64,000 nucleotides of DNA from Cercospora beticola (Eukaryota; Ascomycota; Dothideomycetes; Mycosphaerellales; Mycosphaerellaceae), in NCBI RefSeq assembly GCF_033473495.1, contig NC_088936.1, forward strand, positions 682,001 to 746,000, in the 5' to 3' direction. Each line of letters starts with the position of its first letter. Position 1 is the stretch's first letter. The translations under genes and the position numbers were made by a program. Positions 45,741-64,000 of the stretch are shown here, piece after piece. The notes under the pieces are model-generated. The model did not search any database. It was given only the letters and a program-made list of their open reading frames with translations, and was not told the DNA's origin.

Positions 45741-47470
45741 TTAGATATAGTACTATATAGTAATCGTCTTGTAATTCCTTAAAGTAGAATAATTATATAG
45801 GCTAATAAGTAGAGTACTATAGAAGCGTAGTAGATATAAGAAGGAATAGCGAATAAATAGGTAAGTCTAGCTAGCTAGTAACTCGAGGAACGGTAATCTA
45901 GCGCCTCTATATACTTTAGAGAGACCGAAGAGAGAAGAAGTAATTAGTATAGATATAAAGATATAGTAAGGCGCTCGCTCTATAAAGTAATATACGAGGC
46001 CTACTACCGGCGCGAAGGTTAGTTAACTATAAGAGTTAAGGAGTAGCGGGCCGTAGCGTCGGCTAAGTCGTATTAGAGCGATCGAGCGGCGAAATAGTAC
46101 TCTAATTTATATATATTTATATTCCGAGTCGATCGCGATTTTGCTCTTCTTTTATTAAATTCTATTATAGGCGAATAATATATATACTAAGGTTTATAGT
46201 AGTATTTAATAAGTTTAATAAGAAGAGAGAAATCTATTATCTAGTAACTATAAAGAATCTTCTAGCTACTAAGTCCTAAAGTACTAGTATAGCTAGTACT
46301 TAGTAAATAGAGCTTTAACTTTTATATTACTTCTTTTCTTTTCTTTCGCGTTATCTCTTTATAGTATATTATTAGAATCTATTAACTTTCTAATAATAGT
46401 ATAACGCTATACTACTTAGCTAAAGTAGTAGCTAGTTAATACTATATACTCTCTTACTATAGCTAGTAATACGCCTTACTACTAAGCTAAGGTATTAATA
46501 ATACTATATACTTCTACTACTACTAGTAAAGTAGAATTAATAATATATACTCTCTTATTATAGCTAGTATAGTACTCTACTACTTAGCTAAAGTAGTAGT
46601 TAGATAGCGACCTTAGCGTCTATTTCTTTACTTATAGGCCTAGTTATTAAACTAATACGCTCTACTAGTAGGATCTAGCGTTTAGAGTTTCTTCTAATAT
46701 TATACTCTACTATTAATCTAATACTATCTACTAGGAACTTACTATAAAACCTCTTCTAGTACTTATAGATACTACTAGTAAACTAATACCTTCTACTTTA
46801 TTTCTATCGATATATAGAGAGTCTATATAATAGTAGCTATAATAATAGCTAGCGATAATAGCTAGTAATAATAGTTAGTATTAGAAAGTATAGTCTAGTT
46901 AGATATTCTAAGAGATACTTTAGAGATTAGAATTAGATAATATAGATTATATAATATTAGGTTATATAACCTAGCTAATACCTATCTTAGGAGTAGAATA
47001 TAACCTATAACTAACTAATATAATTAACTCGGTTAGTTCCTATCTATCGCCTCTACTTCTATTATACTATATACCTTACGATCCGACCTACTAACTCTAT
47101 AATTCGATATTCTCTACTCTTATTAATATTTAGCTACTACTAGGAGTAGATAGTAGTATAGTAAGAGGCCTCGAGGCCTCTTCTATCTAGTAGTTCTTCT
47201 ATCGTTATACTTATTCTTTCTATAAATAATCTATTTTAGAATTATAATATATTTACTAATAGTATATAGGTATTATTATAATAAAACGAAGCTAGATAGG
47301 GCGCCTTATAGTTATTATAGAGATAGGGAGTAATAAAGCCTATTAGGAGTCGAGCGAGATATCTAGGATATATACTATACTAGGCTATATATTAGACGTA
47401 GGAACTATATAGAGAAGGACGCAAGGTTAGAACGAATAAGGCATAGGACTATTTGTTAGATATACTATAG
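45741..47470. other. RIP DNA between DUF3435 relic and island, with local repeats
   Basis: No gene seen. It holds degenerate ~100-bp repeats around tatactctcttactatagct (46,440-46,600), taatagctag microrepeats (~46,835-46,880) and a perfect 20-bp palindrome centred on CCTCGAGG at 47,163-47,182. RIP character ends near 47,470. Confidence 0.6.
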
Positions 47471-47966
47471 TCGGGGATGTCTATAATGGGGTCTTCACGA
47501 TCTGCGGTACGGCGAGGCCGGAACATAGCGTAGGCCCAAGGGCTGGCGGTGGCGGTAGCTACTTGTCGAGATCGCATAATTCGAACAGCCCCCACGGGGC
47601 GTAGAGGATTGCCGTCAACGCACTCTCCTCGTCACTTACCTAATACTCCTGCAGGTTTTGGCTAATCGTAGTGTAAAGTGAGGTGTTCCATCGGCGATTC
47701 GTGGAGCGAGGGGAATGATCACGTTGGCGTTAGCTAGGGGAGGGGATGAAAGCAACATGGCTTTGTCCTGTCAGGTGCAATGGATATATGTGAGCACGTA
47801 GAGCACTCATTGATAAGATGTCTCTCAGGCTTGCTGTATGCACGATCCTTCGAACAGATTGCGACGATCTGCGAATGTTGATGCTCGGGATCACTGGTGC
47901 GCCGAGCGAGCGTCAACATCTAACGAAACCTCTTGCTATGATACACGCAATAAGCTGGCATTTCGT
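47471..47966. other. Non-RIP left edge of the island, no gene assigned
   Basis: Normal composition begins abruptly. Short open stretches exist on both strands, including a minus-strand gtaagt donor-like site at ~47,639, but none has a recognisable domain. It may be the 3' flank of the UstYa gene or a truncated gene end. Confidence 0.5.
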
Positions 47967-48949
47967 CTACTCTCTACCCGTCCAGCTATAGTATGGCACA
48001 CTCCCGTTGGCCTTCTCCAGCTCAGCCCCAATGCTGTGATTCCGATGCCAGTGCAGCAGTGAATCGTAGTTCCTGCACCGTTTCCGTCTGCTGAAGTCCA
48101 TCTTACCCTCCCCATTTTCGTCACGCATGTAAGGGATGATGGCCAGATCTGACTCACACATGATCGATTGCCTAAGCTGGTCAACGCAGTGCGCGGTGTG
48201 CAACTCCATCAGTGAGTAATTGCCTAGCATAACCTCCTGCTTGGAACTCCAGTCAGGGTGCTGGATCCGGCGATAGTATTCCCAATTATACCACAAGCCT
48301 TGTCGAAGCATATTCAGACAATGAAGTCGATGTTGCGCCTGTATCATTCCAGCAACTCCCTCGTATGGAATTGCAGATGATTGGCTAGGATCAACCCGTG
48401 CATGATGGGGCTCGATATCAAAATACTGAGTTTCCGCGGTAGGTACGACAATCGGCGGGCCTTCAGTATTCGTTAAGCGTTTCCCACTTGTGCCACCAGA
48501 CAAAAAGAGAAGTCTTACCGTTGACTCCTAGATCATGCCAGTTACGATCGACCTGGGTGCCGACGTAGTCTGGCTTATCTGTATATCGGGTCACCTTATA
48601 GTCGAGATCGTTGAACGTCAGGGTGTAGATCGCCATGTCCATGTCGGACATGAAAGGCGCTTTTGACAATTAGCATAATCTTGCAGAGCTTCCGGCCTTA
48701 CTCTTTACCTTGTGTTTGATCCCTCATCTCGAATTTCCCAGTCCGAGCGCACGCATGCAGCCAATCAGTCGAGAAGAGAAGGGTAAGAATGTTTGTAACA
48801 ACAACAATAATTCCCCACACGATATTGTTCCATGGCAGAGGCCCTTGATAGCATCTAGACGACTTAGAGCAGCATCTAGAGCATGGATTCGTGTCCGGCT
48901 CGGCATCCAAGGCGGCGTATGCGCAATTTCTGTTCGCAAAAACAGCCAT
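47967..48949 (-). CDS. UstYa-like (DUF3328) oxidase A
   Basis: Membrane-anchored UstYa-family protein of 291 residues. Relatives catalyse oxidative steps such as cyclisation on ribosomal peptide precursors in the ustiloxin, asperipin and phomopsin pathways. Exons on the minus strand: 48949-48709, 48659-48519 and 48460-47967. Introns of 49 and 58 bp both have GT donors, AG acceptors and consistent phase. A single membrane segment spans residues ~43-60, placing the catalytic part in the secretory lumen. The family stretch DYVGTQVDRNWHDLG is at 111-125. The two metal-binding HxxHC motifs are intact: HRLHC (171-175) and HTAHC (215-219). The usual Cys/Trp tail (RCRNYDSLLHW) is present. It is transcribed in the same direction as the precursor gene, 547 bp downstream of it. 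The intron-1 acceptor (AAAAG) is not the preferred CAG, so that junction is slightly less sure. Confidence 0.87.
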
Positions 48950-49495
48950 AGCAGAGCAAGTCGTTTATGGTTAAGAGAAAATGAATGTCACTTTCTACGG
49001 GTAGCTACAAGCTTTTAGTTAGGAACGCTGACTCTCAAAGACTAGCCCTAATGCCTCATTTGTTGTCCCGGTAGATGGGGTTGAGCTAACGGGCAGTAAC
49101 AGGGCAGGGTTGTGTTGGGGTTGACCAGACAGGCCGCCGGACTTAACATACATTTCTTGGTCACGAGGCGCGTATGTAACGTTTTAAACAGCAATGGCGA
49201 CGGACATGTCTTACAGTGAGGTCTACGCTGCTAGCCGTTCTGCCTGACTTCGCCGTGGGAGGATTCCCGTTCACAGTTCGTTATAGTCGATCACAGTGCT
49301 CACTCAGCATACGACATCGCCGCGAAATCACGCGATTGGAATCAATAGTCGAGATCTAGCAGCTTAAAATTGGTAAAGCGTATGGCAGAAGTGCTTTCAC
49401 AGAAGCACATGCTTTTATCTGGCCAGTGCCTCCCCTAGTCGACGTACTTCTCCCTCATAGCTCTAGAGCTTGCCCGATCTCACGCATCGAACGCA
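48950..49495. promoter_or_regulatory. Intergenic region upstream of UstYa A, downstream of precursor
   Basis: 545 bp of normal composition. It should hold the UstYa A promoter and the precursor 3' end. No specific binding site was assigned and no gene is seen. Confidence 0.45.
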
Positions 49496-49802
49496 TCAAT
49501 CTTCGTTCGGACGCTTGTACTCGAAGTCCCAATAGAACGGCGTGACTTTCAATGCGGCTTGATCATGTTCTTCCTCCTCATCCTCATTATGCTTAGTGGC
49601 CTCTGCCCTCTTCGCTTCATTCTTCTCTTGGATCATATCTATTCAGAATGATTAAATCAGCTTTCAGGCAAAATGGCCAGTAGCGGAACATGTGAGCGTC
49701 AACCATGTTATACATACCTATCTTTGACGCAGTGCCTTCCACGGGAAGACAGTGCACCGTGACGGCGAACATAGCAACGAGCGCCAATGCAGCGTGTTTC
49801 AT
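49496..49802 (-). CDS. Candidate single-core RiPP precursor peptide, secreted
   Basis: Two exons (49802-49718 and 49638-49496; 79-bp intron with GTATGT donor, CTGAT branch-like site and TAG acceptor) encode 75 residues. The chosen ATG starts MKHAALALVAMFAVTVHC, a clear signal peptide; an ATG 42 bp upstream would bury it. Residues 38-39 are KR followed by AEA, a Kex2 site with a dipeptidyl-aminopeptidase-like tail. Residues 46-54 are strongly acidic. Residues 63-69 are FYWDFEY, followed by KR (70-71) and four last residues. Family knowledge: UstYa-pathway precursors are secreted, cut at KR, and have Tyr-rich cores that UstYa proteins oxidise. Inference: FYWDFEY, perhaps with a few preceding residues, is the core. 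Most known precursors carry several core copies; this has one. Its position beside three UstYa genes supports the call. It could be another small secreted protein. Confidence 0.75.
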
Positions 49803-50882
49803 GTTGGCTTGAAGAGGTATTTGAGAAATTTGGAAGTTGTTCAATCTGCTGATGGAAGGAGAGTGTCAAGCAACGCACAGTTCAGTCTCGTTTTTATAGA
49901 CTCCTCGCTCCTCAATCGAGCCATCCCGCTCATCGTTCAGAAGTTTTCACTGGGAGTCGGGGGGGGTCTCACGGTTCATCCCTCTCGCCACAGCTAGGGG
50001 TAGCTCTACAAACCCTATCATGCATACGGTGAACAGGAAACCAGTGTGAACGTACAGCACAGACGGTGTGAAAATTGATAAGTGCATGCCACTGCTAGCG
50101 TCTTGCGCACAGACATCGTCGATGTCAACTCCGCATGGACGTTCCTTGTACAGGCTGGGTGAAGAATCATACAGTACGAACCCCTGCTAGCGCTTTGCGA
50201 ACAAAATACGTCTGTGCAACACAGGCACGGACGAAGTTTGTATGCAAAGCGCTGGCAGGGGTTCGTATGATTCTTTACCCAGCCTGTCTGCACGACGCTA
50301 ACAGGGATATCTATCATCCTTCACACCCACTGTAGTACAAATGCTACAAATGGTACAGCAGGTGTGAAGAATTTGGGCAACTCCTGCTAGCGCTGATACC
50401 CCTTGGCTAGCCATTTTGCGTGATTGATTCCACCTTTCTATACACAAAGTGGTAGACAAGGTAGTGACTCAATGCAGGCGAGTCACAAGACATGGGTTAG
50501 CAAGATTCTCCACACACCACTATAACTTAGGGCAGATTCTTCACTCATGAATGGGTACCATGTTCATATATGCAGTCAGAGTCGTGTGAGTTTCGCATGG
50601 GCGACTTATGAGGAAGCTGCACTCGCCGCTTTTGGGTTCAACCGCGATATCAGCACGAGAATTTTCTATCCCTCAGGATACCGTGTGTCCACGTTGGGCT
50701 TCGATGGATGACCTTGCCGGGTCTATCATGGGTCTCGATCGGGTTCGTCGACTAGATGTGCTTCCTGGATGTTTTGGTTCTGTCCCCGCGCCCATCGCCA
50801 ACTTGATATCAACTCGTTGTTTGGCCATCGTTGAGCTCAATTGGTCTCTCATTGCTTCACAGTGCTCGAAAGCGTTGAAACT
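49803..50882. promoter_or_regulatory. Divergent intergenic region between precursor and UstYa C
   Basis: 1,080 bp separating the divergently transcribed precursor (minus) and UstYa C (plus), so it should contain both promoters. About a third is a fold-back repeat (50,065-50,395). No TATA box or regulator site can be assigned with confidence, and no gene is seen. Confidence 0.6.
50065..50395. repeat. Fold-back repeat cluster of ~40-bp units
   Basis: Five related units share GGTGTGAAgAAT at one end and CCTGCTAGCG at the other. Direct units are at 50,065-50,108, 50,156-50,200 and 50,361-50,395; inverted units at 50,243-50,284 and 50,293-50,329. The two central ones form near-perfect ~65-bp arms (50,150-50,218 against 50,222-50,288) with almost no loop, so the DNA can form a long hairpin. 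It may be a MITE-like insertion or promoter repeats. It is not RIP-mutated, and the units are well below usual RIP length thresholds. Confidence 0.8.
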
Positions 50883-51963
50883 ATGCCGAGGCAAGATGCA
50901 GACTTTAGCGACCAAAGCAGGCACTTGCTAGGCAAAGACTTCCAGTGCAAGCAACGGGATCGTCGGCCAGAGGTGTTGCTGGATTCAAAGATACTGACCA
51001 GTATTCTCTTCGCGACATGCTTACTATCACTCACTTACTATGCTGGCTACCGGCATGGCAAACAGACTGCTTTTCCCACAATGTCGACACATTGTAAGCA
51101 GCAGAACAACAGATCCTACTTGGCGCGATGTTGTTCGTAGCTGATGAGTTGCATAGATATCACAGCAGATAGCACGCGCTATGTGATCAAGACCCTTGAC
51201 GACAATTTCGAAGTTCGACAAAAGGAGAATGCGTTGTTCAAAGGTCCACCCCGACCTGAGCACGAAGCGGCGTGGCGCGCTCTGATACGTGGTAAGAGCG
51301 GCTTGATGTTCAGCTATGCTTGGGTCAATTGCGCTCCAGACACAAACATTGATTGCTGATTGATGGCGATACAAGGTATGAACATACGAGTGCCATCCAG
51401 CGCAGCAGCTGCTTCAAATTTTAGCTCTTTCGAGCTACTTGATGGGACCGGAGACGTGTGGGCCACACCTTTTTTGTTTCATCAGCTTCATTGCTTGGTA
51501 CTTATCGATCCACTGGCCCAGACTTGCTTCAATGGTGACTAACTGTCGGTCAGAAAACAATTCGCGAGGCACAATATCCAGAAAGATACCCGCAATCGTG
51601 GGAGGTCATGAAACCTCAGGAAACAGGTGAAATGAGCCGGCATTTCGACCACTGTCTCGAAAAGTGAGTCCTTTGTTCAAAATTCCGATACTGAGCGAGA
51701 ATCTGCTAACGTGGAGATATTCCTGCAGTCTTCGACAATCAGTGTTGTGTCAAGGAGACATGTCATTGTCGGGGTACGAATGGGACGATAATGGCCCGCG
51801 AAGCCTCATGGGAGGTCAGCACGTATGCGTGGACTGGGAGCGAATGTATAAGTGGGTGATGGAGCGTAGCTTTGATATCTGGGACACACGTTTGACTGGA
51901 AAATGGGCGCAAAGTCTGCGCCACCCCGAGGAGTTCTACAACGCTTCCGAGGTCCATTGGTAG
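50883..51963 (+). CDS. UstYa-like (DUF3328) oxidase C
   Basis: A 270-residue UstYa-family protein, expected to oxidise the neighbouring peptide precursor in the secretory pathway. Five exons: 50883-51093, 51157-51291, 51376-51497, 51554-51663 and 51729-51963. All four introns (63, 84, 56 and 65 bp) keep phase and rebuild the family's conserved stretches. The third has a GTACTT donor, less usual, but it joins HQLHCL to KTIREA exactly where the family expects it, and an ACTAAC branch site precedes its CAG. One membrane segment is at ~37-54. FEVRQKENALFKGPPRPE is at 88-105. HQLHC (151-155) and HFDHC (186-190) are intact, followed by LRQSVLCQGD. The start at 50883 is preferred; an in-frame ATG at 50841 would add 14 residues. 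Divergent from the precursor, and followed by UstYa D on the same strand. Confidence 0.85.
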
Positions 51964-52607
51964 CAATGTTGATGGCCTTTATTCCGCGGCTACGATAATG
52001 ATGCTTCACTTGAGAGCACCTGTTATACGATCGAACAACGAGTCACCCGTGGAAGAGTCACATGTTGCAATGCGTGCCGGCTCAACTTCTATGACACCAT
52101 GGACATAATCTCTGTGCCCTGGGGGAGCTCGAGGTACAGGTCTCATGGAAATGGAACTTAGAAGCACAAGCCGAGGGGGCAAATGACGATAATCTGTCGG
52201 CCAGTTCGTGCTTCGAGTGGTTCCACCGATTAGCCTTTTGTCTGCGCGAGCACTGGGGAGACGGGAGAACTCGGCTGGGGAGAGAGTGCGCTACAAGCTC
52301 CAAGCCCTGCGCTGCATCTTTGCGAGCCCATCCTGTGGTTCGGCTACATAGCTAGACCGAGTGCATTATTCGCTTTTGCTTGCCTTTCAGCGGGGATTTA
52401 CAGGCCTAGTAAATCCAGTCTTGCCGGGGAACTCCATGCAAAGAAGTAATAGGAAGCTACGGGAAGATTCTTTTATCCGTACTGTCATTGAGCATGCAGA
52501 ATAAACGAGGCGCAAGTTCCGATTCCCTCTGTCACATCCTGTCCATGGGAACAGAGTCTTTTTCTGCGCCGCAAGCCTGTCTCGACATGCTAAAGCATAC
52601 ACACATC
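51964..52607. promoter_or_regulatory. Intergenic region between UstYa C and UstYa D
   Basis: About 640 bp of normal composition. Presumed terminator of C and promoter of D. Open stretches here show no domain and are taken as chance. Confidence 0.45.
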
Positions 52608-53345
52608 ATGACTTCAAGATTTCAACCAAGCAAGCGAAGCGTCATTGGTATCGCGACTGTTACAGCCATATTTGCCACGATGTTCTTGCTATATAATCGA
52701 ATTGGCTTGTTGAGTCAAAAAGCTTTATCTGCGACGTGCGGCAAAGTCAAGCCCGCAGGACCATGCCAAAATCACCGCGCACTGTACAAGGAGTTCAAAT
52801 CGATACCAGAATTTGAGGATGTGACTGGCCATCTTTCAGCCTTTACCTCAAACATTAGCGCCCTTGATCACGCTGCGCATCGAACTGCCTTAGAGGAAAT
52901 CAGCCTACCAGAAGAGCAGTTCCTTCTTGTCGAGCAGAATGGCGTGCCAACCTACTTCGGTGTTACGATGTTCCACCAGCTACACTGTCTACACATGATT
53001 CGAGATGAGCTTGCGCAAGGCTCGCAGCACCGGGAAACGACTTTACGCCACGACGACAAGCAACAACATGGCGGGCACGACCACCACTGGGCTCACTGCT
53101 TGGCGTATCTTGCTCATGCAATCACTTGCAACGCAGATGACACACTAGAGCCCATTGTTGGTAATCTGGTTTTCGATGGTGTTGAAAGACCCGTGGTAAA
53201 CGGAGAGGCATCGTTGCACCAATGCCACGATCCATGGGCGCTACGTGCTCTAGTAGAGAAGAGCATATCGAGACCATTAACTCCGATTGATAAGCGCGTA
53301 TTTCGCACTGGGGACCGGGCACGAGACTTCCGCGAGACTATATAG
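52608..53345 (+). CDS. UstYa-like (DUF3328) oxidase D, intronless
   Basis: A 245-residue UstYa-family protein in one exon, unlike the three- and five-exon neighbours. Start chosen at MTSRFQPSKR because a basic cytoplasmic tail of ~10 residues then leads into a membrane segment at ~12-33; an in-frame ATG at 52,488 would add 40 residues of no clear character. HQLHC is at 123-127 and HWAHC at 160-164, followed by AITCNADDTLEP, the usual post-motif stretch, and a QCHDPWAL tail. The family's Y-G/W region before the first motif is not recognisable, so it is the most divergent of the three and may do a different oxidation. The stop TAG (53,343) lies ~70 bp before RIP-type DNA resumes. Confidence 0.82.
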   Translation: MTSRFQPSKRSVIGIATVTAIFATMFLLYNRIGLLSQKALSATCGKVKPAGPCQNHRALYKEFKSIPEFEDVTGHLSAFTSNISALDHAAHRTALEEISLPEEQFLLVEQNGVPTYFGVTMFHQLHCLHMIRDELAQGSQHRETTLRHDDKQQHGGHDHHWAHCLAYLAHAITCNADDTLEPIVGNLVFDGVERPVVNGEASLHQCHDPWALRALVEKSISRPLTPIDKRVFRTGDRARDFRETI

Positions 53346-54017
53346 TTTTCAACTCTAGGGATATAAGATACGTAAAATATACTAGGACTGTCGTACTTGA
53401 AAGCGCAACGCGCTTATTATCGGCGTAGCTAATACGCCCGAGTACTCGCTTCTAGAGTTTTCTCTATAGTAATTATCTACTTATTACGAAGTTACGTATT
53501 ATTATATATTATTAGGAATACTAAGAGACTCTCTTCTTCTTATTACTAAGTAAAAAGAGAGTTATAGAGAGTAGTATACGATTAGATAAGATAGAGAATA
53601 GATATATAGATAGATAGATAAATTTAATTACTATTCTATTTTCTATAGAGAAGTATATAGTATATACTACTTATTTATTTAGAAGAGGAAAGCTTATAGC
53701 TAAGACTCTTAGCTATAAAAACTCTCTATATTCTTTTTATTTCTATAGGTTAGTAGTTCTATACTTTAGATTATATATTTCTTTTAAATAAATATAAGTA
53801 CTTTAGAAGTTCTTTCTTTTATTAAGTTTCTATTTCTTTTTCTTTTTTCTAATTCTCTAGAGTTCTTTTTCTTTAGTAAAAATAAACTATTCTAGTACTT
53901 CTTTCTAGATTAGCTATCTAGCTATTACTAGTAGCTCTTTCTTAATATTTATAAAGTTCTTTTAGTTACTAAAACCTATTATAGTAAATAGTATCTATTA
54001 TAGTAAATAGTATCTAT
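53346..54017. other. Right island edge passing into RIP DNA
   Basis: Normal composition persists to about 53,415, then RIP texture begins (tata/ctag-rich, few CpA/TpG). No gene seen. A short direct repeat of tatagtaaatagtatctat sits at ~53,980-54,020. Confidence 0.6.
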
Positions 54018-54288
54018 TATAGTATATTATAAATAGAAATAGATAGGAAGGTAGATATAGTTAATATAAGTATAGTTACTATAGATAGAGCTTAGATACT
54101 TTATACTACTATATAGGTAGCTCTCTTTAATAGAATATAGCTTAAAAAAAGAAAAAGAAAGCTTTCTTTTCTTAAGTATATAAGTATATAGATACTTCTA
54201 TACTTTCTATATAGATAAGCTAGAGCTAGTATTACTATCTTCTACTAGCTTCTAGGTAGTTCTATATCTATAAGTCTAGCCTATAATA
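54018..54288 (-). repeat. Gypsy-2 3' LTR
   Basis: Shares agatagagcttagatact and tactatcttctactagcttc blocks with the split right copy. Confidence 0.75.
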
Positions 54289-54759
54289 TTACTCTCTTCC
54301 TAATAGTAATACTCTAAGTTATATTCTTTTTAATAGAGTAAGTATAGTATACTCTCTTCCTAGATAGTATATAGCTTCTTTTTCTCGAGTTCTACTCGAG
54401 AGTAAAATAAAATAGAATAGATACTCTATAATAGTAGAGTAAATAGATTAGCTTCTATAAGTAGGAGCTTTCTATAGTATTACTTTTAGTATATATAGCC
54501 TACTCGAGGAACCTAATCTACTATTATTACTATAACTAGTATACTAAATCTAAAGATAGTACTAGAGCTTTACTATATATAGTTCTTTATAGTTAGAATA
54601 GCTCTCTTATAGTACTAGAGTTACTAGATAGTTAGGCTAGTCTTATATATAGCTTTTTAATTTATAGAAACTTTCTAGAGAGAAGCTCTATAGTTAGTTT
54701 ATCTAATTAGTTATAGGTAGAGGATTCTAGATCTAATATAACTTTTTAGAATTTAGATT

Positions 54760-54830
54760 ACTTCTATAGTATAGAGGTTATAATTATCTAGTAGGAATCT
54801 AGAGTCTCGAGTTTAATTCTTAGTAGAAGT
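54760..54830 (+). tRNA. tRNA-like relic (71 nt), RIP-mutated
   Basis: The 7-bp acceptor arms ACTTCTA (54,760-54,766) and TAGAAGT (54,824-54,830) pair perfectly at tRNA spacing. Between them are GTATAGAGGTTATAAT (A-box/D-arm-like), a 5-bp anticodon-type stem TCTAG/CTAGA with a 7-nt loop, and a T-arm TCGAG-TTTAATT-CTTAG. The T-arm mismatches disappear if CpA-type transitions are undone. Position 33 of the anticodon loop is not T, so no anticodon is assigned. It lies inside gypsy-2 and is a relic, not a working tRNA. Confidence 0.55.
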
Positions 54831-54889
54831 AGAGACTAAGTATTAGATTTTAAGTAGTTCGAGATATAGACGCGTAGTAGAAGTTATAT

Positions 54890-57800
54890 ATAAGTAGATA
54901 GTAAAGTTAGAATAATTTTCCTAGCGACGATAGGCGAGGTATAGCTATTCTTAGTAAGAAGGTTAACTTCCTTAGAGTCGTATATTCGAGTCGGTTTAGA
55001 GTAGTAGTATTAGATATATCTTTAGGTCGTAATAAGTTAGAGAGAGTAGCTAGTAGAGTAGGCAGATATACTAAGAAGTTATATAACTTTTCTTAGAGCT
55101 ATATATATAGATAGATCTTCGACTAAAGTAGGCTTATATAACTTCTAGTAGTTATCGCTATAGCTATAAGCTAGTATAAGTCTTTATTATCTAATAGATT
55201 TTAGGTATTATATAGTAGTAGGAATCGTACTTAGTTAGCTCGTCTAGTTAGTCTAGAGTATAGATATAGGCCGAAAAATAGAACGTCTATCTCTTTAGTT
55301 ACTATACTTAACGCTTAGAGTTCGAACTTCTAATAGGCTATATATAATATTAATAGTATCTATAGTATCTTAATATTATACTAACTTTTTACTTCTTATA
55401 CTAGTATCTAGTAGAGTACTAGTTTAATCGAGTACTAGTAGTAGAAGTTCTAGACGAAATATAGTATATTCTCGATAATTATATTAGTAGGTTCTATAGT
55501 TAGGATATCGTAGCCTTTCTATTTTACTATATAGTATAGTCGTTCCTTACTACTATAGCTATAGTAGTCGACCTTCGAGTTAACGATTTCTTCGATTTCC
55601 TACTTCTTAACCTTATTAATAATAATAGGTAGTAGTAGAGATATATACTAATAGCTATATAGGTTATTTATAGTAAGAGTAAGTAGGTCGTTATTAAATA
55701 CTAGGTATAGCTTTATCGTTATAAGTAGGTCTAGCTAGTAGATATATAGTTTCGCTTCGAAGATATAGAATAGATTTAAGTTCTTCTAGTCGAGTTTCTT
55801 TATAAAGTAGAGAGTCTTAATATTCCTAGTATCGAGCTAGACCTAATCTCTAATAGAGAACTTATAAGAGGCGCTATAATATCGATTAGTAGCCTTCTTA
55901 TATTAGAACTATACTAGGCTGGTCTCGGCTTTTAGAAAGTTAGTAATTATCTTTATATCTATAACGAAAGATTCTACTTCTCGACTTATAAAGGTATTAG
56001 TCGTATACTATAGAACTTTAGTTCCTAGAAGAGATTAGAAACTATAGATAGCTAGGAATAGAAATAAGCTAGTAGTTTTAGAGAATACTAAGTTCGCTAA
56101 GAATTCTACTAGTAGTAGCTATTCTATCTAGTTATCTTATAGATATAAAATATATATATATATAGGTATTATTCGAGAACTATATTTAGCCTCTCGGTCT
56201 AGCTATCTATCTATAGGTAGTAGATAGTCGATAGAGAGTAGGTAATTCTTAGTTTCTATATAAAGTATTTCTAAAAGTTAGATATAAACTTAGCGTTCTA
56301 ATTAGAGATAATATTAATTAGTTTTCTATAGAGTCGGAAGATATTCTTAATAAATAGGCGAGTAATCTCTTCGGCGCTATTAGTTATAAGATATAGAATA
56401 TAGTAGTATAGCTTTATAAAGCGATTAATAACTACGAAGATAGTATCGAACTCTTTAGACTTAGATAAGTATATAATAAAGTCTATCGAGATCGAATTCT
56501 AAGTATAGTTAAATATTAGTAATAGTTATAGAAGTTCTCGATTATATTATTAGCTAGGCTTAATTCTACTATAGATATAATAGTTCTAGACCTAGCGGTA
56601 GATATATATACTTATACTTAGCTAGTAGTAGTTCCTCGATATAATCTAGTATATATAGGCTCTTCTAGAGTATCTAGTAGCTAGGATTTTATAGTAGAGG
56701 TAGAGAACTTAGTCGTAAAGCTCTTTATTATTCGGTATATAGAGTTAGCTTTAGTAGAAGAGTAGGTCCTCTCGTAGCTCGTACTATATAAGCTAGATCG
56801 TCGGGTAATAGCTTTTCTCTTCTTATATTATATCTATTATCTTATAGAGAGTCTTATTAGTTCGGTATTCTTACTTTATTATTTCCTAGAGCTCTTTAGA
56901 GATCTATACTATACTAATAGTATCTCTCGGCGAGAACTATTCTCTTATTCGGATTAGGAAGGTATATAACTATAGTTCCGGTATAGGTAGTATATAGATC
57001 GTAATCTAGTTAGAGAACGATACTCGTTTTTATTTTCTAGAAATAGAGAGGTTTTCTTATTTTAGAATCGTTTAGCTCTAGTACTATAAGTATTTATTCC
57101 TCTCTTTAGGTAGATTATCTAACCTTCTAGTTAGAGAGTTAGGTTTTTAGCCTTATTTCTCTAGTTAGTAGATAATCTAGAAGTAGAAACGAGATAGAAA
57201 TTCGGACTAGTATACTTAATAGTAGTTAAGTTACTTTATTATTATAAAGTATTCTAGATTCTTATAGTCGGATAAGACTTTAATCGGATATTCGGCTCTC
57301 TTAAGCTTAGAGTACTACTTTTCGAAATAGTAGATAATAGTAAGTAGCTCTTTATTATAGATCTCGTAGTTATATTCGGTAGAGCTATACTTCTTTAAGA
57401 AAAAGGTAATAGATTATAGTATTCCTTTATTATTATATTAGAAGAGAATCCTAGTAGATATATAGTTAGAGACGTTAGTCTCGATAATAACTTCCTTAGT
57501 CTAATCGAATAGAGCGAGTATTAGGCCTTCTATAAAAGCTTACTTTAGATCGTCGAAGACTTTCTAGTAAGTAGAAGTCTAAGCGAATAGAGTATCCTTA
57601 TATATAAGAGCTATAAGTAGCTAGTAGATTTTCGAGAAGTTCTATATAAAGTAGTAGTAGAAGTTTATAAACTCTAGATAGGACTAGACGTTAGTAATAT
57701 TCTTTAGTTTAGGCTAGTTCTAGATTATTTAGACCTTTTCGGAGTCTATCTAGATACTATTTTAGCTAACGATTATTTCTAGGAACTTAGTTTCGTATTA

Positions 57801-60420
57801 GAAAAACTCGTACTTCGATAGCTTTATATAAAGACCTATATCTTATAGCTTCTATAGAATAGCTCGGACGTATTTCTTATATTCTTCCTAGGTCTAGCTA
57901 TAAATTAGGATATTATCTAGATAGGCTAAGTAGAATTAGTCGAGGAATTCGCGTAGAGTATCGTTAATAAACTACTAAAAGGTTCTCGGTACGCTAGTAA
58001 GTCCGAAAGGTATAATAAGGCTTTTAAATAGTCCGAAATAGATCTAGAATATAGTAAGATACTCTTACTCTTCCTTTATATATATATTATTAAATATAGA
58101 AATAATATCGATCTTTATAAAGTACTTTATTCTACTTAGGTTATTTAGAGTCTTAGTCGTTAGTAGAAGTAGGTATCGGTCCTTAATAGTAAGCTCGTTT
58201 ATTGCGTAGTAGTCTATATAGAGCCGTAGGCTACTTCTAGGCTTCTTAACGAATAGAATAGAGAAGGTAACTAGAGAAGAGCTTAGTCGAATAAAGCTCT
58301 TCTAAAGGTTCTTATCTAGCTATTTCTTTAAAGCTTATAGTTCGTCTTAAGATATTCTATATAAAGAGCTAAATAGTAGTTCGGCGCTCTCTTTTAGCTT
58401 AATATCGTAGTCGTATAAGTAGTATAGAGGAAGCTAGTCGGCTAGCTTTAGAGAAAATATAGAGCTAAAGTTATAGAAGTACTTAGGTAGCTATTCTTCG
58501 ATATCGGCTTTTTCTTTAGAAGTAAATATCGACTATAGGTCCTTAATCTTTATATAGTAGAGGTAGTATCCTTTCTATTATATAGATAGAGCGGCGTACT
58601 TCGTAGTAGCTTAGAACGATATCTTAAATATATTAATAGTCTAGCGTTTCTCTTTCTAGATCTAGAGAAAATATTTTATATATATCTAGATAGGTCGGGA
58701 CTTAGCTAGAATAGAATAGTACTTCTTATAGTATTCGCTTCTAAACTAGAAAGTAGAGCGACTCGGATAAATATTAGGATCGTAGACTTTAAGCTATAAA
58801 TATTCTAAGATAATAGGACTTCCTTCTATTTTAGTAAGTTAGAAAACGACTTCCTTTTCTAAGTAGTTATTAATCCGGAGTATATAGTAGGTACTATAGT
58901 AGATAGCTACTCCTTTAGCGTCGCTATTAGTATTAAATAGAAGTATAATAACTTTTTTCTTTAGAAGTTAAATACTAAAGCCTTAGGCTTTAGCCTATTA
59001 TAAGTCTATTATTATATAGACTTCGCTACTAGTATCGACTAAAGTATAGTCGGAGATAATCCTCTCTTATAGAGAGATTAAGAATAGAATTTTCGGTAAT
59101 ATAGATCGGTCGTATTTATATAGAATAGTAAGTAGTAGTTCGATTAAGGAATAGAAAATATAAATAATTTCGAGTAGAATAGAGCTACGTAGACCTAACG
59201 CTAGGCTACGACTAAAGCTAAGCGTACTCTATTTTCTAATAGTAGAAAGAAAGAGGAAGAAGTAGTCTATTTCGAGCTAGGTAGAGATCGGCCTCTTAAG
59301 AGAGATATAGCTATAGCTATATAGTAGCGTTCGGCGTTATACTTCTAAATAGCTAGAAAGTAGCAGTTAGGCTCCGAATAGTCGGCGACTCGGTATTCTA
59401 GTTTATAGTAGTAGTAGTAGTTCTCTAGCTTCTTATCTATCTTACGATCTATATTTAAGTCTATAGAGTCGTCTATAGTCTTAGCTCTTATAATAGGACT
59501 CTTTTCTTATCGAGTAGGTTATAGAGTAGTAGGTCGTACGTTCGGAATCGTAGTAGTTCTACGCGTAGGTACCGATCTATATAGCTATAGTCGTTAGTCG
59601 AAGCTCTAGAAGTAGTAGTATAGTTCCTAAAACTTATATAAGAGTAGCGGACTATACTTAAGTATACTCTTAAGTTTATTAGAGACTATAAACTCGAGTA
59701 TAGTCGTAAGAAATACGTCGGTAGCTATCTCGCTCTTAAGACTTAGATACTAGAATTCGGCAAAGAAGATACTATAATTCTTATTTATCTAGTAGTAGTA
59801 GAGGAGCTAGTTACGCGCGTTTTATACCTAATTTAGGTCGCCGTATATACGTTTAAGTATATCTAATACTCCTTAGAAATCGGTAGAGTAGATAGTAAGT
59901 CTCTAATATATATAGAGTACTACTTAGTCGTAGGTAGCGCTCTTAAAGTAGTTCTAGATATAGGTAAGATAGGAATCGGTAGTTAGGAAATAGTCGTAGT
60001 TAACTATAAGTTTCTAGATAATTTAGTTTATAAAGCGCCGGAGGTCTGCCTTATTATCTAAAAACTTATTAAGATCTAGTATATATTCGGAGAGCTAAGT
60101 AGAGAAGGAAGCCGGAGTAGTAAGAGATATAGGTATTCTTATAAGAGGATCTATACTCTCTTTAGTCTATAACTTAGTAGGTAAGAAAGACGGAGTTTAT
60201 ATAGTAGGTTAGGCTAAATAGAGAGCTTCTTATACTTCGAACTTCGCTTAGAAAACTTCGTTATAGAGCTTAGACTCTAGCTCGCTATACTAGCTCTTTT
60301 AGAAGTCGACGATTATATAGAGTTTCTAGCTTTCGAGATATATAGATTAAAAGTTCTCGTTTAGCTCGGTAATATATACTTACTTATAAGCGAGTTTATT
60401 TTCTAGTATATCTCTTATTT
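54890..60420 (-). pseudogene. Gypsy-2 gag-pol relic
   Basis: A polyprotein relic on the minus strand. The RT finger/palm (YIDY, LTSVPRTF, YLDN) and the integrase core can be followed by ignoring TAA/TAG. YLDD reads YLDN, a G-to-A change that alone would abolish catalysis. No chromodomain was recognised here, unlike gypsy-1. Confidence 0.65.
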
Positions 60421-60701
60421 CTTACTATTTCTCGATATACTTATAGATAGATTAGAAGTAGTAGAACTAGATAGATAGATTAGTAGAGGTATATTCGAGG
60501 AATTAGAATTCGGTTTCTAGAAGGAATAGAAGTAGAGAGTAGTCGATAGCTATATCTAAGAGTAGGAGCTATATAGTATTATAGATAGAGATAGATAGGA
60601 AGGTAGATATAGTTAATATAAGTATAGTTACTATAGATAGAGCTTAGATACTCTACGCTACTATATAGATAGCTCTTTTTAATAGAATATAGCTCGAAAA
60701 G

Positions 60702-61838
60702 AGAAAGAGATTAGTTAGTTAGTTAGTTAATTCCTATATAGTTATAGCTACTATAAAGGTAGCTATACTCGAATATAGAGGATTAGCGAATAGCCGACGT
60801 AATACTAATAGTATTAGCGTACTCCGCTTCGCTATACCGATAGTACGACTAGCTATTCCTTTATCTCTACTTATAGTCTATCTCTATATCTAACTATTTA
60901 TATTTCTCTAATAAGTATCTTCTTATATATCTCCTCTATTTACTTCTTATATCCGATATTAAGACTTTTATTATATTCCTATTTATTATAGCTCTAATAG
61001 TATCTTAATACTATATCTACGACTATCTATATATAGTCTCTCTCTAATATTCGGTATTATCTACTTATTCTAACTTAAATAACTTCCCTCTATAGATATA
61101 AATATATACTTCGAGTTATATCTATATAATTTTATTACCTCTTACTAGGTTTCTATATAGCTCTATATTTCTTTCCTTTTATATTATATATTATCGGCGG
61201 GCTAGTAGCGCTATAAGTCGTCGTCTAGGTCTATAAATAAGATTTTCTACTCGTACGAGGTATCGAATTACTAAGTATAAGAGCTCTATTACGAATCTCT
61301 CTAGACCTTATTAGATATATTAAAGAGTAAGTAGTTCTTCTTTATTTAGAGAAAGAGCGATAGTAGATAAGGCTATCTATAGACTATATATATTATTAGT
61401 ATCGACCGTAGTATACTAGATATCTAGTATTTCGATTTATAGAGAAGATAATACTATTCTCTTTAAAAGTCTATCGATATAGAATATTATAAATATTATT
61501 AGAAGTTAGTAATAGACTAGCTAGAAGCCTATTAGTAACTATATATTACTACTATAGTATTATTAAGTATCTAGACTTCGTCGTCCTATCTATATTACTA
61601 GCGAGTCGTTTATAGCGCTACTACTATCGCCGACTCTATTATATATATTCTATCTATTTTATACTTTTAGTATTTAGTAGCCTTATATCTCCTACGACTA
61701 TAATAGTAGCTCTATAGGTATATCTACGCGGAGGGACGCGTAGAAGCCTATAGATACCGTTACGGCCGTATATAGATATATAATATACTATTATACTACT
61801 AAATTCTAAAAAGTATACTTCTCGCTATATTTATATTT
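60702..61838. mobile_element. ~1.1-kb insertion inside the gypsy-2 5' LTR
   Basis: Absent from the left LTR copy. It starts with TTAG repeats (attagttagttagttagtta at ~60,709). No coding region is recognised, and RIP is heavy. Identity unknown; possibly a non-autonomous element. Confidence 0.5.
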
Positions 61839-61985
61839 TCTATTAGAGGAAAGGAAAGCCTTCTCTCCTCGAGTATATAAGTATATAAGCGCTCCTATAC
61901 TTCCTATATATATAAGCTAGAGCCGGTATTACTATCTTCTACTAGCTTCTAGGTAGTTCTATATCTATAGGCCTAGCTTATAATA

Positions 61986-63740
61986 TATACTTTATAGCGC
62001 GCTCTCGAATTCCTTATCTAATACTACTTTAGGTTTATCTATCTAGATATTACTCTCGACTAGTTACTACTTATAGTACTATCTAAGAATAAGTCTATCT
62101 ATAAATAGTTATATATAGAAGAGTATATAAAGTACTTATATCTAAAGTATAACGATCGATAGCTTAAGTATATAGATTATTTATAGAACTATATAGTAAG
62201 AGTATATAAAACGTTAATATAAATATCTTTTTAGATATAAGTACTAGGTACTTATTAATAGTAAGTAATTAGCCGAGCTAATATTCTAGGAGTATACTAC
62301 TAGAGCTAGATAGCATATTCGAGAATATAGAAAGATATAGAAGCTACTATATAAAGCTATAGATATAGAAAGGTCTCGAGTATAAAGGAAATAGAGCCGA
62401 TATATATATACTATCGATAGCGCACTTTCTAGAGAATATATATTAAGACTAGATAGACTACTACTATATAAGGCTATAGAGATTCTTATATAGACTCGAA
62501 TAGAGCTATATATATCTAATCGGATATATAGCTCGAATTAGATAAGTTAAAAGTATAGCGTACGTATATAGTAGGTAGCGTAAGACTATAAAGTATATCC
62601 TTTATTACTCGAACTAGATAGTAGAAAGTAGGTAGTAAAAGAAGCGGCCGGTTATAGATAGAAATAGAGAGACGTATCGTATCTTCTAGGTAGAAAGAGT
62701 TAAAGAAGAGACCGAAGAATAGAGAAGTATATAGATAGTAACTAATAGCGGCTAGATCTAGTAATAGTAAGAGCGACGATCGTATTTCTTAATAGTATAG
62801 GAAGGTATTCGAGCTAGAAGATAGGCGTAAATCGCTACTAATTACGCTCTTATCTAGTAGCTTCCTCTACTTATACTTATAATAAAATTAACTTAGAGAT
62901 ATACTAAGTTAAAGTAGCTTATAGAAGTACGAATATAAGATATAATAATTAGAGATAGCTTATCTAGCTTAATCTATATATAGCTAGATTAAATAACGAA
63001 ATAAAACGAAACGAAACGAAACGAAACGAAATAAAATAGAACGAGTAAAGGATACTAACTATCTAATATATAGCTACTTAAAGATATTAAGGAATACTAG
63101 CTAGAAGGTATATTTATCTACTAGTCTCTACCTCGAGCTTATATATTATACTTTAAGTATAAGTAGCTATAGAAGCGTATCTCTAGCTATACTTATATAC
63201 TTAACTATAAGAACTTTAGATCTATATATAGCTCGATTTAATAATATAATAAATATACGAAATACCTACGACTTATTTCGAATTAGAAGGAAAGCTAAAG
63301 TAGCTCTATAGATATATAGTACCTTTCTACGAAGAGTACTCTATAATTACGTTACTTAAAATTAGCTTCTAGGCCTACTTTTACTTTAGCTTATAATTAT
63401 CTAACTTATATTTTCTATCTTATAGTATACTTATTAGTAAAAACTCTACTATTATTCGGAGTTAATATACTCCTATATATAAAAGTAGACGACTATCTAA
63501 GATAGTAGTCCTTATTACTTAAGCTAGGAATAGGATTTAAGTATATCTCTACTTTATTTATATATATCTTTTTAGTAATATACTTTTATATATCTAAGAG
63601 TACTAGGAGCTTATTCGTATCGGTAGGTTTAGTAATATTCTAATAGATCTCTACTAAGTCTAGTTATTAGGATTCCGAAAAGTATATTAAAAGAGTATTA
63701 AAATCTCGGTAAGTTTTATAGACTCCGAAATTAAGCTATT
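61986..63740. other. RIP-saturated DNA, no gene assigned
   Basis: Nothing recognised apart from an (ACGAA)n microsatellite near 63,000. Confidence 0.55.
62995..63040. repeat. (ACGAA)n microsatellite
   Basis: About six consecutive acgaa units with degenerate flanks. Confidence 0.85.
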
Positions 63741-64000
63741 TTTTTTTTATATCTTATACTAATATAGTTCTCTTTCGGGCCTATATAGAGAGCTACTATA
63801 TATTCGCTAGAAATAAAAACTATAGCTAGAGCCTAAGTAAAAAACTCTTCTATTTCTACTATCTATCTTCTATATTAGAAAACTATTCGAACTATAAGCT
63901 ACTTCTTCTATAGCCTAGATAGCTTTAGTTATCGATATCGTACTCTCTTCTCTTTTCTAGTTAGCCTCTTCTCTTTACTATTTTCTATACTAGCGAGAAG
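63741..64000 (-). mobile_element. Second copy of the LINE-2 3' end
   Basis: Begins with an oligo-T tract, then tagttctctttcgggcctat and onward, matching 3,290-3,551 at roughly 90% with differences mostly transitions. The element runs out of the window. Confidence 0.75.

Follow-up and report, generated by a model that had tools for sequence, protein, structure and literature searches.

Does a compact group of four genes in Cercospora beticola, three for UstYa-type proteins and one for a small peptide with Kex2-type sites, encode a pathway to a cross-linked ribosomal peptide? The genes lie at positions 47967-53345 of the window (the whole 64-kb stretch of DNA that was analysed), in an island of ~5.4-6 kb where three intact UstYa (PF11807) genes, here called A, B and C, accompany one precursor gene placed among them, and no further gene was recognised in the island. 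We consider it probable, at roughly 0.6, that this island is a small RiPP cluster of dikaritin-like type, built around a single-core precursor whose aromatic core the three oxidases would cross-link.

Three oxidase genes and a spliced precursor

Gene A (47967-48949, minus strand; exons 48949-48709, 48659-48519 and 48460-47967) encodes 291 aa with a hydrophobic segment at the N-terminus and the motifs HRLHC and HTAHC; its first exon is a model made here, the annotated 208-aa form (P0003) beginning inside exon 2. Gene B (50883-51963, plus strand; exons 50883-51093, 51157-51291, 51376-51497, 51554-51663 and 51729-51963) encodes 270 aa with HQLHC and HFDHC. The divergent gene C (52587-53345, plus strand) is intronless and encodes 252 aa, or 245 aa from an alternative ATG at 52608, with a transmembrane-like helix at the N-terminus and the motifs HQLHC and HWAHC. 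The initial annotation had claimed three UstYa-like genes with two HxxHC motifs each, and this is borne out: A, B and C are all full-length and match the UstYa/DUF3328 profile PF11807 (E 6.5e-35, 7.1e-38 and 1.8e-18, respectively), and both motifs are invariant in 3/3. NCBIfam profiles gave no match above cut-off.

With mutual identities of only 24% (A-B), 17% (A-C) and 18% (B-C), the three genes do not appear to be recent tandem copies of one another. Their relatives within the genome are also distant: the best other match of gene A is at 48% (C8:1143622), the three strongest for gene B reach 34, 42 and 34% over partial lengths, and four for gene C reach 34-42%, again over partial lengths. 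Taken together, these values suggest three distinct oxidases kept together. A search with the three-protein alignment returned 9 matches among 1810 candidates at E <= 1e-10, of which two belong to this very gene set (P0002, P0003) and the remaining seven share at most 51% identity with gene A. The search for a solved structure of the UstYa family gave 0 matches. AlphaFold models of the 208-aa form of gene A (mean pLDDT 39.2, 6-row alignment) and of gene C (52.2, 8-row alignment) place both HxxHC motifs in predicted helices, at a confidence too low for the metal site to be assessed.

The precursor gene (49496-49802, minus strand; exons 49802-49718 and 49638-49496) is open up to its stop codon and encodes 75 aa. 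It is spliced; read without the intron, the gene lacks the core. The peptide begins with a hydrophobic, signal-like stretch (best 9-residue hydropathy mean 2.9 within the first 25 residues, a judgement from hydropathy only) and runs through an acidic spacer into an aromatic block followed by KR. The proposed core, PFYWDFEY (residues 62-69), directly precedes the second of two KR sites (70-71), and the first (38-39) stands 22 residues ahead of it, so that at the level of KR sequence the core has Kex2-type sites around it. What had been described as a small KR-containing secreted-peptide gene is corrected here to a spliced gene with a single core. Apart from its own two exons, no paralog was reported in the genome at E <= 10.

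For the precursor a single homolog was found, CBER1_11820 of C. berteroae (1 candidate in 5.8 billion proteins), likewise of 75 aa and identical at 71/75 positions. All four differences fall within the last 17 residues (of 75; chance 0.002 under uniform placement), where they flank the core, with both KR sites retained and PFYWDFEYKR identical; an unchanged core says little when there is one ortholog only, 95% identical and at short distance. To this extent, the earlier proposal that one Kex2-type precursor is served by three oxidases gains from a KR and aromatic block kept in one close species. Gene A is 100% identical to P0003 (CBER1_11819) across 208 aa, 71% of its length; P0003 stands for a two-member cluster spread over 2 contigs, one of which is from this genome, and the C. 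berteroae tags for gene A and the precursor are consecutive. Gene B is 100% identical over 270 aa to a C. beticola protein annotated on a contig of another assembly, and it was found in this species only, with 1 hit among 286 candidates. The 245-aa form of gene C corresponds to a database cluster with two members, on 2 contigs, including one from this genome. Given the annotated match of gene B and the annotated precursor ortholog, the gene models go beyond chance. The same four-gene set, suggested earlier as something to look for in related genomes, was seen in no other species in the protein databases, where C. berteroae shows the precursor and A, and C. beticola B.

Relation to known peptide pathways

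By the class-defining enzyme, a DUF3328/UstYa protein with two HxxHC motifs (as reported in PMC12048977), all three oxidases qualify as dikaritin enzymes; the five-gene definition of Ding et al., as reported in the same source, asks for repeated cores and for a tyrosinase, methyltransferase, transporter or peptidase in the cluster, and does not cover an island with a single core and partner genes not seen. On gene content, we regard the cluster as dikaritin-like but outside the older five-gene, multi-core definition, with a precursor that departs from the usual models in lacking repeated cores, a usual hallmark. Ustiloxin and phomopsin likewise have UstYa homologs (2 and 5, respectively) and a precursor that carries a leader and Kex2-type KR sites, but are described with 16 and 8 repeated cores where there is one here, and with an essential tyrosinase, a methyltransferase and, in ustiloxin, more tailoring genes, none of which was seen here (PMC6514808, PMC7329392). 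Asperipin-2a from Aspergillus flavus comes closer, with four genes, an aromatic core, a UstYa-type oxidase and no tyrosinase listed in the account consulted; that cluster has one oxidase with a reductase and a transporter, whereas here there are three oxidases and neither partner (PMC6514808), and its precursor has repeated sequences (PMC7329392) in contrast to the single core here. Epichloecyclin precursors are likewise described as multi-core (PMC6514808). Victorin, from the Dothideomycete Cochliobolus victoriae, is grouped with the dikaritins and likely processed by Kex2, but is described with a multi-core protoxin, chlorination and cluster-encoded peptidases (PMC9233826, PMC12048977). Dikaritin-like clans of lichens also have two-HxxHC UstYa genes and no repeated precursor, and the authors of the 2025 survey suggest that the core may be single; no precursor is pinned down in that account (PMC12048977), whereas a specific one, with an ortholog, is proposed here.

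For the enzymes, a close comparison is CctR, the cyclochlorotine hydroxylase, a copper-dependent DUF3328 enzyme that shares the two-HxxHC family and the N-terminal transmembrane helix but hydroxylates a non-ribosomal peptide (PMC12435403). On our preferred model, the 75-aa precursor would enter the secretory pathway. Phe/Tyr/Trp side chains of PFYWDFEY would be oxidatively cross-linked by the three membrane-anchored UstYa/DUF3328 proteins, all of which have the type of two-HxxHC site that was shown in CctR to hold two copper ions. Kex2 would cleave after KR39 and KR71, a carboxypeptidase would take off the C-terminal KR, and exopeptidases would trim the acidic spacer to give a ring-closed peptide of ~7-10 residues. 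Secretion, copper use, cross-linking, step order and core boundaries are inferences. A bolder version, which we hold only tentatively and think rather doubtful, is a single-core, oxidase-only pathway where three anciently diverged copper oxidases would each make a different cross-link on PFYWDFEY, giving a polycyclic peptide with no tyrosinase, transporter or methyltransferase. If true, this would be a class invisible to repeat-based genome surveys. The large KEP survey required three or more tandem repeats, each of 8 aa or longer, between Kex2 sites (PMC7329392), and the precursor, with a single core in 75 aa, is not a KEP and would be missed by such surveys. In open-licence literature we found no description of this cluster or of a concrete single-core, oxidase-only UstYa pathway. 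The single-core idea becomes directly testable in a cluster this compact, whose precursor is defined and for which masses are predicted exactly, and such a cluster suggests a way to look for more. For PFYWDFEY the calculated [M+H]+ is 1166.483 if linear and 1164.467, 1162.452 and 1160.436 after loss of 2, 4 and 6 H; the corresponding values for FYWDFEY are 1069.430, 1067.415, 1065.399 and 1063.383. In Mycosphaerella (Pseudocercospora) fijiensis, infected leaf showed higher levels of 11 DUF3328 genes, and no gene of the family was higher in culture (PMC5006380).

Other readings of the peptide and the oxidases

The 75-aa protein might instead be an ordinary Kex2-processed secreted peptide, a small effector or signalling molecule that stays linear while its UstYa neighbours act elsewhere. 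We judge this improbable: the gene sits among three UstYa genes with no other island gene recognised, and its product has one Cys, in the leader, unlike effectors of the cysteine-rich type. The single core and acidic pro-region would nevertheless suit such a peptide. KEP genes show an enrichment of DUF3328 genes in their vicinity (PMC7329392). Only 22% of KEPs have such neighbours (PMC7329392), and Kex2-processed secreted peptides and effectors without these oxidases are described as common (PMC8528282, PMC7329392). The core itself points the other way, being aromatic with Tyr, a residue found in 65.6% of repeats with DUF3328 neighbours vs 38.2% without (PMC7329392).

We give still less credence to the peptide being a bystander while the three proteins act on a non-ribosomal or polyketide product or on a second precursor elsewhere. 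DUF3328 enzymes do work outside RiPPs, in the cyclochlorotine, astin and atpenin pathways (PMC12048977), and the genome carries 63 exon-level PF11807 matches, but no NRPS/PKS-length frame was found in the window or in stretches L014-L016, and the precursor is the only candidate substrate recognised in the island. A detector combining a hydrophobic start, an aromatic block and a dibasic site near the C-terminus, designed after this precursor was known and thus not a blind test, gave 1 model in the island, none in the four flanking stretches L013-L016, and 2 weaker ones among 16 further UstYa stretches taken from this genome, 9901 bases apiece with L020 and L021 overlapping; these two came from L023 and L030, one in each, and the remaining 14 gave none. 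The L023 candidate, on the minus strand from 8825, is weak and may be chance, and no convincing single-core precursor emerged from the 16 stretches, including L024, a four-oxidase locus with gene A's closest paralog, which held no precursor candidate. Repeat-type KR precursors were recognised in 2/16 of them.

Flanking RIP blocks and the intergenic repeat

The island lies between AT-rich, RIP-mutated blocks at 2101-47440 (GC 0.31-0.32; RIP composite +1.71 to +1.76 in three parts) and 53401-64000 (GC 0.296; +1.73), the latter starting no more than ~100 bp from the stop codon of gene C in a 200-bp window boundary scan. Their closeness, and usual partner genes not seen, would fit a degenerating relic stripped by RIP-driven decay and yielding no product, which we regard as the least likely reading, as none of the four reading frames or seven modelled introns is broken, other Cercospora records carry annotated versions of A, B and the precursor, and the island (RIP composite -0.57) has no RIP signature and resembles this genome's normal-GC stretches in its indices. 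The initial annotation had noted no visible methyltransferase, tyrosinase, transporter or regulator, and we agree, adding peptidase: none was seen in the window or L014-L016 by a general inspection of frames and Pfam searches of surrounding pieces. Its further suggestion that the missing genes were lost to the RIP blocks finds no support: Pfam recognised no pathway-gene relic in ten surrounding pieces, a weak test given how short are the pieces that RIP leaves. A weak reverse-transcriptase match (58068-58301, E 0.0046) lies in the right block, below cut-off.

The precursor and gene B diverge from a 1.08-kb intergenic region (49803-50882), likely a shared promoter, from which the genes may be co-regulated. 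It contains five diverged copies of a ~60-bp unit (50055-50420), three direct (50055-50122, 50146-50214 and 50351-50420) and two inverted (50290-50226 and 50337-50280), which match by construction the nhmmer query built from them; nhmmer detected no further copy in the window or L013-L032. With up to 1 mismatch allowed, the window contains 14 matches to the CTGCTAGCG motif vs 15.1 expected, which is no enrichment. A genome search with 50020-50450 recovered this locus plus a single partial match at C1:910668-910741 (81% to 50379-50444), and with this one other match a MITE reading of the repeat is unproven. Of the 3 genome occurrences of a 16-base pattern taken from the repeat, 2 are in this region.

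Three UstYa-type oxidase genes beside a proposed single-core precursor

The studied genome comprises 36.07 Mb on 10 contigs, the window being C2:682001-746000; proteins shared with Cercospora berteroae and C. beticola at full or almost full identity put it within this group or very close to it. The island on contig C2 runs in the order gene A (47967-48949, minus strand), precursor (49496-49802, minus), gene B (50883-51963, plus) and gene C (52587 or 52608 to 53345, plus). A profile search with PF11807 (DUF3328) matches all three full-length proteins (E = 6.5e-35 for A, 7.1e-38 for B and 1.8e-18 for C). None of the six HxxHC motifs is disrupted, and in the alignment the three oxidases share the His and Cys of each motif, confirming what the initial annotation had observed here, namely three intact two-HxxHC UstYa genes with a KR-containing precursor. 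The five-exon model of B agrees in 270 of 270 residues with a protein annotated in C. beticola, which lies on a contig other than this genome's C2. Exons 2-3 of A equal P0003 (208 aa, 100%), labelled CBER1_11819, a cluster of two members on two contigs, one of them this genome's C2, so the 100% may not hold for the C. berteroae member. Exon 1 of A, which supplies the hydrophobic segment, is our own model; the Pfam match starts at residue 40. C corresponds to a database cluster of two members on two contigs. AlphaFold models are of low confidence (pLDDT 39 for the 208-aa form of A and 52 for C), that of C showing an N-terminal helix.

Pairwise identity is 24% between A and B, 17% between A and C, and 18% between B and C. 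The best paralog of A in the genome reaches 48% (C8:1143622). For B the three best hits elsewhere in the genome show 34, 42 and 34%, and for C the four best show 34-42%, in both cases with partial coverage. By these comparisons A, B and C do not form a recent tandem array, which would argue for distinct functions rather than for a dosage effect.

The precursor is encoded in two exons that yield MKHAALALVAMFAVTVHCLPVEGTASKIDMIQEKNEAKRAEATKHNEDEEEEHDQAALKVTPFYWDFEYKRPNED. Because its stop-to-stop frame continues into the intron, the core is missed when the gene is read as intronless. A single homolog was found among 5.8 billion proteins, the 75-aa CBER1_11820 of C. berteroae, with four differences (K59R, T61K, E74Q and D75V); residues 1-58 and PFYWDFEYKR (62-71) are identical. 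All four differences fall within the last 17 residues (P = 0.002 under uniform placement, a descriptive value only, for four changes between close species). Conservation of the KR and the aromatic block, one of the two points on which the RiPP proposal had been staked, is observed in one close species. Because locus tags 11819 and 11820 are consecutive, A and the precursor are implied to be neighbours in C. berteroae. The proposed pathway is plausible, and close relatives retain some of its parts. The complete four-gene set was seen in no species besides the studied one: the searches returned B from C. beticola alone and the precursor from C. berteroae alone, which may be an annotation effect.

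Class membership and proposed maturation

The newer dikaritin criterion in section 23 of PMC12048977, which takes DUF3328 with two HxxHC motifs as the class-defining enzyme, includes this cluster; the older five-gene definition recounted in the same section does not, nor does the KEP definition in the methods of PMC7329392, which asks for no fewer than three repeats. The cluster is classed as a variant whose mode of action is probably dikaritin-like, and its RiPP reading is a plausible, well-posed prediction from sequence. A single core with an oxidase-only gene set makes it of greater interest than one more ustiloxin-like cluster.

By analogy with characterised enzymes, Kex2 would cleave at KR39 and KR71, inside the secretory pathway the three oxidases would cross-link a core rich in Phe, Tyr and Trp, and peptidases would trim the ends. 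In PMC12435403 the DUF3328 member CctR is described as a membrane-associated, homodimeric and copper-dependent enzyme that requires dioxygen and electrons, its HxxHC(x)nHxxHC motif forming a binuclear copper centre. According to PMC6514808, ustiloxin biosynthesis requires UstYa homologs together with a tyrosinase, and asperipin-2a biosynthesis requires a UstYa homolog, its four-gene cluster listing no tyrosinase.

Other candidate precursors in the genome

Chance was assessed with two detectors, both built post hoc with the precursor already known, on 16 other UstYa stretches, which are part of the genome's UstYa places (63 exon-level matches). The first sought a hydrophobic start, an optional intron and at least four aromatics within the eight residues preceding a dibasic site near the C-terminus. 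It found the precursor alone in the island (five aromatics), one weak model in each of two UstYa stretches (L023 and L030), none in the other 14 (L020 and L021 overlap) and none in the four flanking stretches, L013-L016. The second, with a stricter start, at least two aromatics before KR and an upstream acidic stretch, recovered the precursor and two overlapping models in L023, with none in the other 15 UstYa stretches. At L023 8825 (minus), a weak single-core-like model whose last residues read ...DFPYYVLEKRKAARER is separated by some 3.4 kb from a UstYa match and may be chance.

A scan for repeated KR peptides gave one or two open pieces in each of eight UstYa stretches (L017, L019, L021, L024, L025, L026, L028 and L032) and none in the other eight, the four flanks or the window. 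By eye, tandem KR-core precursors occur in only two of the eight: L019 6462-6982 (C9, ~621 kb), with repeats like VPYEVGLTYADYGREGAAKAEKRQFQDE, adjoins UstYa genes, and L026 2594-2884 (C3, ~400.7 kb, minus), with EPYFLGRTWTPPEAAENTKREA repeats, has a UstYa match at a distance of about 2 kb. Classical multi-core types thus occur in this genome alongside the single-core precursor of the island. The L024 piece was rejected as a 39-aa, low-complexity sequence and the remaining pieces as long ordinary frames. Four UstYa genes, one of them A's closest paralog, lie at L024 3386-9072 (C8, ~1.14 Mb); no precursor was recognised at this locus, part of which appears RIP-mutated from the whole-stretch RIP composite of +0.32.

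RIP surroundings and partner genes

AT-rich blocks flank the GC-normal island (~47450-53400). Their RIP composite is +1.71 to +1.76 on the left and +1.73 on the right; that of the island is -0.57, with values from -0.52 to -1.01 across its genes and intergenic region. In 200-bp windows the index is positive up to ~47600-47700 on the left and again less than ~100 bp past the stop of C. The initial annotation had offered loss of partner genes to these blocks as an alternative to a minimal pathway, an idea that the Pfam searches and frame inspection neither support nor contradict. Pfam searches of 10 surrounding pieces matched two of three NACHT-gene frames, gave a reverse-transcriptase match below threshold in one RIP-block piece, and returned no match at all for seven. 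Sixteen window frames reach at least 100 aa: eight in the island, six within 1-2143 (the PNP/NACHT gene and frames crossing it) and two in a RIP block (103 and 115 aa). Frames of at least 120 aa are absent from flanking stretches L014 and L015 and number two in L016, one of which was submitted to Pfam with no match. No tyrosinase, methyltransferase, transporter or regulator was seen among these window and L014-L016 frames, an inspection by length rather than by family search that covers frames of at least 100 aa in the window and at least 120 aa in L014-L016.

At 1-2143 the window carries a fungal NLR-like gene (PNP_UDP_1 with NACHT/NPHP3_N), whose 3' part extends into the RIP-mutated block. 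Within the island, the precursor (minus) and B (plus) diverge from a 1.08-kb intergenic region. In this probable divergent promoter, at 50055-50420, a unit of ~60 bp built around GGTGTGAAGAAT...CCCTGCTAGCGCTTTGC is present in five diverged copies, three in direct and two in inverted orientation, with one further partial match genome-wide (C1:910668-910741); the copies may act as a control array or be what remains of a fold-back element.
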